A DNA stretch of 64,000 nt from Cliona cf. orientalis (Eukaryota; Porifera; Demospongiae; Clionaida; Clionaidae), in the NCBI GenBank assembly GCA_963930775.1, contig OZ005690.1, positions 12,860,411-12,924,410 on the forward strand, in the 5' to 3' direction. Each line of letters starts with the position of its first letter. Position 1 is the stretch's first letter. Below are positions 29,690 through 35,282 of the stretch, in pieces. The notes below the pieces were generated by a model. It made no database searches. It was given only the letters and a program-made list of their open reading frames with translations, and was not told the origin of the DNA. The position numbers and the translations under genes are program-made.

Positions 29690-29904
29690 ATAATTTTATA
29701 TGATGAAAATTATTAAACCTATAAAATCTATAGCTACACATACACAATAGCACGCGGGGTATGTGCTCTAAGAGCTCTAGTTACAGTTGTTTTCCGTTCC
29801 GTTCGAATTTTTCCGTTTTCCGTATTCCGTGCCGTAGGCGTATACATGTACGCAAGATCATTATCCGTGTGCGCGCGCATGCCACATGCGTTCTCGGGCT
29901 CGCC

Positions 29905-31205
29905 ATGAGTCAGTGGAAAGTCCAGTGGGAGGCTAAGAAAGGACCGGGCTCTGACTCCAGTCATTCAAAAGCGACTGAAACATCAACTGGGGAGTCCATG
30001 AGCCTTTCATCATCTCACAGTTCTGGTGGAGCGGTTGCCTCGTCGAGCTTTTCTGGGGCTTGGTCTCACACATCACACCGCCTAGGTGGTACAATTAAGG
30101 TTAGACTCACTCTCTCTCTCTCTCTCACTCTCTCTCTCTCTCTCTCTCTCTCTCTCTCTCTCTCTCTCTCTCTCTCTCTCTCTCTCTCTCTCTCTCTCTC
30201 TCTCTCTCTCTCTCTCTCTCTCTCTCTCTCTCTCTCTCTCTCTCTCTCTCTCTCTCTCTCTCTCTCTCTCTCTCTCTCTCTCTCTCTCTCTCTCTCTCTC
30301 GACAGCCTGACTGTACTGCGAAGGTGTGGTCTAATTAGAGTGCTTATTCTACCCCCTCCCAGGATTCAACAGAGTACGACAGTGTTCCCAGTGATGATGA
30401 GAGTGATCAACATGAAGATGAATCACAGTCATCTTCTGATACTGAGGAACTACTTGAAGTTGACCTATTGTACTCGGTCAAGTTTGTGAATCCCCAAAAG
30501 AAGTCGGAATATACCATAAGAAAATGGCGTATCAAGCAGAAATTTATGACACGTGCTCAGCTTGCATCAAAGCTGATAGATAGCTTTGATGTACTTCATC
30601 CGATAGATGAGAATGGCCTTTCTATGGGCTATGTTGAACCAGGTCATGGATACAAAGGAAAGCAGCGTTGGCTCTACAGTGACGAAGACCTTCGGGAGAT
30701 GTACTCCACATATTCAGGCAAGAAGGAAATCCTGATGTGGTGCTTTTTACCTGGAAAGCAGTCAAAACGACCACCATCGACTGATCGAACCACAGCTACA
30801 TCTGCCAAACGTTCAAAGGTCGTTGAGTGTAATACAAAGAAAGTATCTGAGGTCCAGGAAATAGTGACTAAATTACAGAGCAAGCATGGCACGATATATT
30901 CTCCAGAACAATACCATGCATGGGCACAGTTAATACAAATGGGAAAGCAATCTTCATATGATGATCCACCACAGTATACCTTCTTTAAAGTAGCAACAAA
31001 ACGGTCTTCCATGCCTGCTGTAGCTGCAGGATCCAGTTCTGTATCTGTGGCTACTGTCAACTCCCCAGGGAAACGTGTGCATTTGAGGACGGAGTTATTC
31101 ACTCAATTGGAGAAATTGGAAGGTCTCTGTAAACAAGGCAGTCTAACAAGAGAGCAGTGTGATGAGCTCAAGAAAAGTATCATGGGAGATATTGAAAGGT
31201 TGTGA
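29905..31205 (+). CDS. P1: unknown second gene of the mariner-type element
   Basis: Two exons, 29905-30099 and 30363-31205, join in phase 0 to give about 345 residues. The N-terminus is Ser-rich (SSSHSSGGAVASSSFSG) and exon 2 opens with an acidic stretch (DDESDQHEDESQ). The core has GYVEPGHGYKGKQRW, DEDLREMYSTY and KKEILMWC, then AWAQLIQMGKQSSYDDPP, and a C-terminal helix region (LEGLCKQGSLTREQCDEL). I recall similar blocks in unnamed sponge and fish proteins but know no function. P2 at 33859-35109 has the same length, intron position and block order. The ATG follows a CpG-rich stretch inside the element end. Confidence 0.65.
30108..30300. repeat. (CT)n microsatellite, ~190 bp
   Basis: An almost pure CT run fills most of the P1 intron (30100-30362), just upstream of the CCCTCCCAG acceptor, as an extreme polypyrimidine tract. 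Long Ser-Leu open frames across it are artefacts. Confidence 0.95.
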
Positions 31206-31361
31206 CTTGAATAAAATTAATTATAGTAATATTGATATCCCGGATCTTTATGAGTGATTATCATGTTTATCATGTACGTGTATACAGTATTATTGTACAT
31301 GCAAATGTGTAACATTCTGATTTCAAGAATAAAAATTCATAATTCGAGTCCAAAGCCATGA

Positions 31362-32351
31362 TTATTGGTAACCACTGTTGTCAATCCATCCATTGCAATG
31401 GCTGGGGGTGATGCTCATAAATGCAGCTCTGACAATTACCTCTGGATTTCCAATGGTCTGGATTAGGGCATCATGCTGTTTCAAATAATATTTGACATAG
31501 CTGAATGTTTGCTCAATTGGATTATAGTCTGGGCTATAGGGTGGCAAGAAAAATACTGGAATCCCGACTGCATCAAAGAGCTGTTTTACTTCTGATACAT
31601 GATGTATTGAACAATTGTCCATTATCACGATAGATTTTGGACTTGATCCATCAAAGGGGTTCATTTGAGGTATCAAACTTCCTCTAATGAAATCATAAAA
31701 GAAATCCGAGGCCACTGTGCCACTGCTCTTCAGATCCATTGCAACTAGACCCTCAGTGGAAATTGCTGCGACGGCAGAAATCCTCTGACCCCTCACAAAA
31801 ATTCTATGACAAATAGGTGTTTCCCCTCTGATGGCATAGCCAAATTTTCGAATACTATTTCGTCTATCACAGCCGGTCTCATCCACCCATACAAAGAGAT
31901 CTCGTTTGTACATTAGTACCTGGGCAATGAATGCCCCCCTCAAGCTATCAGATCTTTGCAAAGCTACCTGTCGCACTTTTTTCCTTGTGAGCCCATACCT
32001 CTGTAGTAGCCTGCAAATTGTGGCCTGTGAGACTCGGATACCACTCAATTCCACAACCTTGTCACAAATTTCACTTAGATAAAGGGATGGATCGTCCAGA
32101 ATGAGACCAAGAATGAACAGCTCCATGTGATCATCAAGCTTCCTTAGTTCTCTTCTAGGACCACTAAGCTTGGGCTCAACATCTCCTGTAATCTCAAAGA
32201 GTGAATAGACACTTTTTGCGGTGCTGATAGCAATGTTAAGTCTCATAGCGATTTGTTTGAAGGTTAGCTCCAAAGATAACCTCTGCCACACAATTCTCCA
32301 ACGAAGATCACTGTGGTATGCCTTCCTACGACAAGGCTCTGCGGAGGTCAT
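31362..32351 (-). CDS. Tc1/mariner-type DD34E transposase, copy 1
   Basis: An intact 329-residue frame. The N-terminus has helix-turn-helix features (LTFKQIAMRLNIAISTAKSV and SQATICRLLQRYGLTRKKV). The catalytic triad is visible: D in WVDETG, D in VIMDNCSIHH, and E in SPDYNPIEQTF, 34 residues after the second D. It should cut and paste DNA at TA sites. It is the sister of the transposase at 32751-33740 but clearly diverged (about half the residues match by eye). It converges on P1. Confidence 0.9.
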   Translation of the reverse strand: MTSAEPCRRKAYHSDLRWRIVWQRLSLELTFKQIAMRLNIAISTAKSVYSLFEITGDVEPKLSGPRRELRKLDDHMELFILGLILDDPSLYLSEICDKVVELSGIRVSQATICRLLQRYGLTRKKVRQVALQRSDSLRGAFIAQVLMYKRDLFVWVDETGCDRRNSIRKFGYAIRGETPICHRIFVRGQRISAVAAISTEGLVAMDLKSSGTVASDFFYDFIRGSLIPQMNPFDGSSPKSIVIMDNCSIHHVSEVKQLFDAVGIPVFFLPPYSPDYNPIEQTFSYVKYYLKQHDALIQTIGNPEVIVRAAFMSITPSHCNGWIDNSGYQ

Positions 32352-33740: not shown

Positions 33741-33858
33741 TATTATTATAATTATTGTAAATATTATACATACTGGCAATGACATTGTGTTCCAACATTA
33801 AAGTAAATGATAATTGAGCGATCAATAATAATTATTATTATTATCTCACCAAAAGTGG

Positions 33859-35109
33859 TCACATTTTTTTAATGTCACCGAGGATAGTTTCCTTTAATTC
33901 GTCATACTGGGTCTGGTCAATTGCTCCTGCATTCAGTAACTCATGCCACTTGCTCAACTGGTCAATGCACTGGGTTCTTAAACCGACTCGCTTAGATGGT
34001 GAATTACAGGTAGGTCCACTGGGTGAGGCAGCTACTTTGTCATTTATTTGAACCTTTTTCTTGCACTTCTTAAAGAATGGGAAGTCTGGTGGCTCCTCAT
34101 AGGATGAGTGTTTACCAACATTGAGCATATGAGCCCAACAATTGAGCTTCTCCACCGAGTATGCATCACCATGTTTCTCCTTCAGCTTCTTAATAATATC
34201 CTCCACTTCATTGATACTTTTTGCAATAGCTTGCCGCTTGCCAGGTGGTGGAGCATCAGTATTGGAAGCTTGCTTACGCTTACGTTGTGGAGGAGGATTA
34301 AAACCGGTCTGCTCACCAACATCACCATAGCACCACAATAAAATTTCCTGCTTACGTTTATAAAGGACGTACATTTCTTTGAGATCATCATCGGTAGTTA
34401 GCTCTCTGAGCTTTCCTTTTTGTCCGTGTCCAGGTTCAATATATCCTAGTACGTCATCCTTCATCCCACTAATCCCTTCCTTAACACATCTTACGAGATC
34501 ACTGAGTGTAGAAAACTGATGCCGATTGACAAGATGCTTTATTGAGTAGATGGACTTCTTTAAACTGTTGATCACTTTCACGTTATAAGTAAACACCTGG
34601 TCTTTCCCCACAACAGAAGTAACCCTGGTTGTGTTGCGTGACTGTAATTGTAGAAAATTACGGGTCAGTGATATATACTTGAGTACTGGATACACATAGT
34701 ATAGCTACTACTCTGCATCAAAAACGCATGTGTGTGGTAATCGTGTCTATATAATGCACATCAAGGGTGAAAAACTAACTTGGCAAACCGTCTCCCCTGC
34801 TGTCTGCCTGCCACACTACATAACCTCATGACTTAGCTACCTATTACCACCTTACCGTACCTCTACTTCATATCCAGCCGGATCATATGAGCGCGTGATG
34901 GGTACAGGTGGCGGGTAGAAGCCTGTTTGAGCATAATACATTGGATGAGGTGGTTGCGGAACAAAATCTGGAGCTCCCGGGGCCAGGCTGGTGCCGCTGC
35001 GATAAGGATAATCGTAGTACGTATAATCAGGATAGTGCCCTGCTGCCTCATAACGGCCTTGTTCATACTCGCCCTCATCTTCCGAAGACGTCCCCAGCTC
35101 CGGCTCCAT
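33859..35109 (-). CDS. P2: unknown second gene of the mariner-type element
   Basis: Two exons, 35109-34861 and 34641-33859, join in phase 0 (donor GTACGG; a GTAAGG five bases on would break the frame) for about 343 residues. The N-terminal exon is acidic, then Tyr/Pro-rich (DYTYYDYPYRSG, PPVPITRSYDP). The core has GYIEPGHGQKGKLREL, DDDLKEMYVLYKRKQEILLW, then CWAHMLNVGKHSSYEEPP, and a C-terminal CIDQLSKWHELLNAGAIDQT block. It matches P1 block for block, while the first exons differ. The role is unknown; conserved pairing with the transposase suggests a helper in transposition or a self-regulator (inference). Confidence 0.65.
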
Positions 35110-35282
35110 TGTTGGCCGCTCACGTGGTGTTTGTTAATACACATTATTATAGTACATGTACATATGCATGCATGTACTATATTATGTACTATCATGTATT
35201 ATACGCGAGCCCGCGTTTTCCGTAAAATTTGGCGCGGTACGGAAAATTCGAACGCAACTGAAATCCGTTGTATACATGTACG

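Follow-up and report, generated by a model that had tools for sequence, protein, structure and literature searches.

Two-gene transposons of the IS630-Tc1-mariner group in the sponge Cliona cf. orientalis carry a conserved partner gene for a predicted PB1-like protein

Transposons of the IS630-Tc1-mariner (ITm) group usually consist of one open reading frame (PMC8533490). In ciliates, the TBE and Tec elements contain three open reading frames, a number that the authors of the TBE study find surprising for Tc1/mariner elements; the extra TBE proteins are under purifying selection, accessory roles have been proposed for them, and these partners left DNA binding unchanged in E. coli (PMC12242761, PMC7325037). 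Among other DNA transposons, Kolobok lineages carry accessory KolX, nucleases or a helicase (PMC9587614), and in the plant MUGB genes, which are domesticated and MULE-derived, a PB1 exon is joined to the transposase-derived gene (PMC3435246). Here, a 64-kb stretch of the genome of Cliona cf. orientalis (assembly GCA_963930775.1, contig OZ005690.1, positions 12,860,411 to 12,924,410, forward strand), referred to as the window, was analysed together with 217 Mb of genome sequence. The window contains two elements, A and B, each of which encodes a transposase (T) and a second gene (P; P1 in A and P2 in B). A sequence-only reading of the window had held that Tc1/mariner elements normally carry one gene, which stands as a norm but not as a rule, since TBE and Tec carry extra genes (PMC12242761, PMC7325037). 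The features, in window coordinates, are as follows.

29782..32481, no strand: element A, a complete transposon of 2,700 bp with two genes, both terminal TAs counted; delimited by three copies at unrelated sites.
32603..35272, no strand: element B, a complete transposon of 2,670 bp with two genes; delimited by 29-bp perfect terminal inverted repeats (TIRs) and two further copies on contig C1.
32603..32631, plus strand: left TIR of element B, inverted pair, 100% complementary.
35244..35272, minus strand: right TIR of element B, inverted pair, 100% complementary.
31362..32351, minus strand: transposase A, 329 aa, DDE_3, DD34E, IS630/Tc1-type, by profile matches and alignment.
32751..33740, plus strand: transposase B, 329 aa, DDE_3, DD34E, by profile matches and alignment.
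29905..30099, plus strand: putative P1 exon 1, 65 aa, modelled from the ATG reading frame; donor AAG|GTTAGA, phase 0.
30363..31205, plus strand: P1 exon 2, 280 aa and stop, with a predicted PB1-like domain, helical hairpin and SHOCT-like hairpin, from reading frame, homologues and structure prediction.
34861..35109, minus strand: putative P2 exon 1, 83 aa, Tyr/Pro-rich; donor GAG|GTACGG by splice score, phase 0, read from the outer ATG.
33859..34641, minus strand: P2 exon 2, 260 aa and stop, from reading frame and homologues; acceptor CAG by splice score.

Elements A and B lie next to each other in opposite orientation with their transposase ends facing one another, and both are recently mobile with P and T carried inside as one unit, because near-identical full-length copies of each are found between unrelated flanks. 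Element A is present in the window, at 21.71 Mb of contig C1 and at 5.39 Mb of contig C5, the copies aligning over their full length at 99.2-99.6% identity, while two more copies of element B, both on C1, are 99.9 and 99.8% identical over 32602/32603-35272. In both cases the alignments end 0-6 bases beyond the TAs, with TA at both ends and unrelated sequence outside. The TIRs of element B begin with TA, and the termini of element A, TACAGTTG.. and ..GGACTGTA, form imperfect inverted repeats that were read by eye and missed by the TIR script. A Kolobok-type TTAA target site was not seen, as the termini are TA and the bases beyond it differ among copies. Thus, the two elements with a DD34E transposase and a convergent second gene, as proposed from the sequence, were confirmed, with the outer ends placed two bases further out, at 29782 and 35272. 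Element B is flanked on both sides (32495-32583 and 35298-35395) by related GGCGGATTTAAATTTGGCG-like stretches, 84-89% alike or complementary, which are perhaps another short repeat hosting the insertion.

The association of the two genes was found to extend over the whole genome. The P1 and P2 searches, which yielded 141 matches and 153 matches (150 of them listed), merge into 155 places, and P is therefore not a chance reading frame. On the transposase side, the best 150 of 548 DDE_3 candidates were scored; 103 of these have a P match within 4 kb, and conversely a scored transposase match is found no more than 4 kb from 103 of the 155 P places. A first count with 137 of the 141 P1 matches (four fragments omitted) and 22 P2 matches, and a recount with 141 and 150, gave the same numbers. 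Among the paired P places, 102 of 103 are convergent with the transposase and 101 are at a distance of 600 bp or less; the sole transposase partner of one place lies 3.8 kb away in the wrong orientation. By this mechanical count 47 transposase matches and 52 P places remained unpaired, and inspection of seven of these 99 sites revealed the missing partner, intact or fragmentary, in every case: a diverged P at three of three transposase sites, and transposase pieces at four of four P sites. Moreover, P-like and T-like frames occur in all 65 loci retrieved from the genome (BLASTP, E <= 1e-4), several of which overlap; 57 of them had been chosen for holding P, and the scored P frame of locus L032 belongs to a neighbouring element. 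Hence, among the 150 scored transposase matches and the 155 P places, neither a transposase population that mostly lacks P nor a P family that mainly stands alone, the two outcomes that would have spoken against the sequence-only reading, was seen, and the two-gene unit is well supported. By profile, P is absent from all 49 IS630-like transposase loci taken from viral contigs; a P2 query, whose reach is close relatives only, gave no confirmed relative in viral contigs (nine candidate stretches) or in contigs of prokaryote genomes (73 candidate stretches). A sizeable fraction of the P places and of the DDE_3 places falls on contig C1 (37.5 Mb), which is more than twice as large as the other contigs with listed sizes.

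Co-inheritance and constraint were examined on a subset of loci, 57 of which passed the coverage filter, leaving 28 elements after removal of near-identical ones; L032, whose best P match lies in the neighbouring element, was excluded. The maximum-likelihood trees of P and T for these 28 elements are strongly correlated (Mantel r 0.873; none of 9,999 permutations reached this value, the highest being 0.642), they have 15 of 25 splits in common, and splits supported at 95 or above show no conflict, with three supported P splits missing from the T tree. Since such congruence follows from linkage, its added information is that no swapping or re-capture of P was seen, and inheritance of P and T together over the long term is shown by computation. 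Pooled ratios of nonsynonymous to synonymous substitution (dN/dS, Nei-Gojobori) were 0.175 (0.111-0.269) for P and 0.182 (0.119-0.288) for T, over 11 pairs hand-chosen for closeness, some of them with no or few changes; single close pairs range from 0 to 0.52 for P and from 0 to 1.47 for T, a scatter due for the most part to low numbers of changes, and the deep pairs gave no ratio because their dS is saturated. From these codon comparisons, purifying selection on P is of about the same strength as that on T, which would not be expected of a passenger gene. DNA transposons do capture host genes, and P could in principle be such a captured passenger or its pairing with T an accident of nested insertion. 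However, pairing and orientation recur across diverged elements, many of them with similar ends, the two trees agree, the constraint on P equals that on T, and the four inspected of the 52 unpaired P sites all hold transposase pieces. Both readings were rejected in view of the pairing, the tree agreement, the whole-element copies and the constraint, and are regarded as highly improbable.

The transposases of A and B are 54% identical and match DDE_3 (PF13358) with E values of 3.8e-26 and 2.6e-30, respectively. All 27 aligned transposases share the catalytic residues D157, D245 and E280, with 34 residues separating the last two. The best NCBIfam model is that of IS630 (NF033545; 122 and 146 bits, cut-off 100), while matches to Sleeping Beauty were weak for its core (E 7.2e-6) and reached E 0.025 for its PAI piece and 0.037 for RED. 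Helix-turn-helix matches in T are mostly weak, HTH_23 being above its cut-off in transposase B only. On this sequence evidence, with DDE_3 and its DD34E signature, TA at both ends and TIRs all found, T is assigned to the ITm group.

P is probably a two-exon gene, with predicted full lengths of 345 aa for P1 and 343 aa for P2, its introns having been deduced from the reading frame and splice signals. An upstream exon is needed because the exon-2 frame lacks a Met ahead of the aligned core in 14 of 15 elements, although for L026, among these 14, the alignment starts only in mid-protein. A crude splice-site score gave its top rank to a phase-0 intron in 13 of 14 elements, element A being the one in which a CT microsatellite misled it; there the reading-frame model was kept for P1. 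For P2, the score started exon 1 at an inner ATG, and the outer ATG was taken from the reading frame. In both P1 and P2 the modelled phase-0 intron directly precedes the conserved core, the exon 2 products are 36% identical, and the motifs GY[VI]EPGHG and D[ED]DL[RK]EMY are present in both, in line with the sequence-only reading. The microsatellite (30106-30300), a nearly pure CT tract of about 195 bases, occupies most of the P1 intron; it is gapped in the alignments of element A copies and its length seems to vary between them.

Structure prediction suggests that P consists of a PB1-like domain followed by two helical hairpins, the last one SHOCT-like. The ubiquitin-like beta-grasp fold of PB1 is predicted for residues 34-130 of P1; Foldseek matches include four rows of other ubiquitin-like folds, which speak neither for nor against PB1. 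Since PF00564 (PB1) has no significant match among 27 P members (one match, E 0.12), the domain is named PB1-like and not assigned to the PB1 family. PB1 domains feature a type II Lys on strand 1 and acidic OPCA residues. In the 27 members, residues of this type occur as K40 in 20, D109 in 25 and D or E at position 107 in 21, while the first acidic half of the OPCA region is replaced by EPGHGxKGK. SHOCT (PF09851) is matched by 21 of 27 members at E <= 1, with a best value of 3.6e-6; P2 scores 18.7 bits, below the 27-bit cut-off, and P1 is unmatched. The helical hairpins are the best conserved portions of P, and a Tyr/Pro-rich first exon is present in several elements. No zinc-finger or kinase-domain family is among the 24 Pfam families matched by the 27 members at E <= 1, no catalytic domain was recognised in P, and no DNA-binding family was significantly matched. 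PIF/Harbinger elements have a Myb-like partner, and a partner of this style was rejected for P, as the 27 proteins match no Myb family in Pfam at E <= 1 and SANT-like families are matched by single members only, at E > 0.1. Sequence searches of PDB returned nothing meaningful for P (best E 0.42), and for its helical part alone nothing was found at E <= 0.001 in PDB (best 0.85) or in BFVD (best 0.003). Together with the pairing and the dN/dS of about 0.18 for either gene, the predicted structure, a check proposed with the sequence-only reading as was dN/dS, favours P as a conserved functional partner of the transposase.

With moderate confidence, P is regarded as an accessory protein that self-assembles via its PB1-like domain and aids the transposase at the element ends. 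This reading is preferred because P has no recognised catalytic domain, probably self-associates, is kept with the transposase and is constrained alike; the folds are predicted, and self-assembly, binding to T and an effect on transposition are inferred. Under such a scheme, A and B would be autonomous two-gene transposons of the ITm group, in which T would serve as a DD34E cut-and-paste transposase acting on the TA-flanked ends and P as an element-encoded accessory protein entering the nucleus. P would self-assemble front-to-back through the beta-grasp domain, using the conserved strand-1 Lys and the acidic residues before helix 2, and its two conserved hairpins may hold the transposase, and with it the two ends of the element, in a multimeric complex by which excision and insertion would be allowed or controlled. 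A more far-reaching version, in which P with its Tyr/Pro-rich exon 1, PB1-like domain and hairpins builds p62-like filaments or condensates concentrating transposase and ends, as part of an ancient obligate two-component ITm system, is considered unlikely; if true, it would represent a eukaryotic transposon assembling its own transposition compartment.

The chief rival to an accessory role is that P acts as an anti-silencing or counter-defence factor in the manner of VANC, recognising the element or its transcripts and blocking heterochromatin or small-RNA silencing so that T can be expressed. This is a possibility of rather low probability. A separate, co-inherited and constrained gene without a recognised catalytic domain would fit, VANC offers a precedent (PMC10398659, PMC5735166), and P evolves faster than T, as in arms races, with identities between A and B of 36% for P and 54% for T, and a tree-distance slope of P against T of 1.46. 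However, the dN/dS of P in close pairs is low and similar to that of T, the pooled value, which is not site-level, has no sign of positive selection, and the hairpins are the best conserved parts of P.

A script with 1.5-kb flanks detected family-type TIRs in 20 of 42 non-identical loci, none in 17 and partial or other repeats in five; the 17 include the most diverged elements, L001-L004 and L007, plus L008. The consensus of 17 hand-picked ends is TACAGTCGATTTCAGTTCCGTTCGAA, with invariant positions 1-3, 10, 11, 21, 22, 25 and 26, the first two of which (TA) were a requirement of the script. The ends are alike although, in the aligned elements, transposases are 51-58% and P proteins 29-36% identical to those of element A. 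Elements measure about 2.3-3.3 kb, and where termini were found the convergent P and T frames end 40-223 bp apart (L032 excepted). This spacing would permit mutual transcript interference, and P, a small opposite-strand protein without a recognised catalytic domain, might be a self-regulator that represses or activates the two promoters of the element or limits transposase activity as a copy-number control. Yet DNA-binding families are not significantly matched in P, and a pure repressor would easily be lost from selfish copies whereas P is retained; self-regulation ranks next after anti-silencing, with a low probability.

P has been retained alongside the transposase throughout a large and varied family, which suggests that neither gene is dispensable to the element. 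ITm transposases are generally taken to work alone, which partly explains their use in gene delivery. The present lineage, large and still mobile in recent times, has kept a second gene under equal selection, and this indicates that in some hosts the transposase is insufficient or has to be protected against the host. Signalling, polarity and autophagy are the settings in which PB1 modules are known; with a PB1-type protein as partner of a cut-and-paste transposase, it could be tested directly whether transposons govern their own assembly or silencing. An experimental test is practical because near-identical copies with open reading frames exist.

Outside A and B, the window contains at 20367-26488 (plus strand) three long frames with matches to DUF6570, to Helitron_like_N and an OTU protease, and to a PIF1 helicase and an Exo_endo_phos endonuclease, respectively, which by their domains appear to form a Helentron-like rolling-circle element. 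A frame with an RPA-like OB fold (28763-29689, plus strand; REPA_OB_2, with Rep_fac-A_C below cut-off) stops 93 bases short of element A and is possibly the RPA gene of this element. On the minus strand, a 564-aa frame (46150-47844) has no Pfam match at E <= 0.001.

As far as these searches go, the two-gene lineage is real, large and undescribed within the literature searched. No IS630/Tc1-type transposase was reported there with a PB1 or SHOCT partner, subscription journals mostly and Repbase being outside its scope, so that an earlier description or database entry is possible, and a search for the SHOCT domain together with DNA transposons gave nothing. The elements resemble IS630/Tc1-mariner transposons in DDE_3, DD34E, TA ends, TIRs and a score above the NF033545 cut-off, and differ from the usual single-frame ITm element (PMC8533490) by the addition of P. 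With Kolobok they share a cut-and-paste mode and a second protein, the His-Me nuclease of KolobokP likewise lying downstream on the complementary strand, but Kolobok uses TTAA target sites and its described accessories are nucleases, a helicase or a P2X7-ballast fold rather than PB1 (PMC9587614). VANC of the VANDAL MULEs, too, is the second protein of a DNA transposon, with an anti-silencing role, but belongs to Arabidopsis elements of another superfamily. The predicted fold of P1 residues 34-130 resembles PB1 proteins such as PKC-iota, p62, NBR1 and Cdc24, whereas P, unlike MUGB, has no transposase domain and does not significantly match the PB1 family profile. TBE and Tec also combine a DD34E transposase with extra element-encoded proteins. 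However, TBE is described with a 57-kDa zinc-finger/kinase partner and a second partner of 22 kDa in which no domain is predicted, and Tec carries a site-specific recombinase, while the elements described here, of about 2.3-3.3 kb, encode a single, convergent protein predicted to be PB1-like and SHOCT-like.

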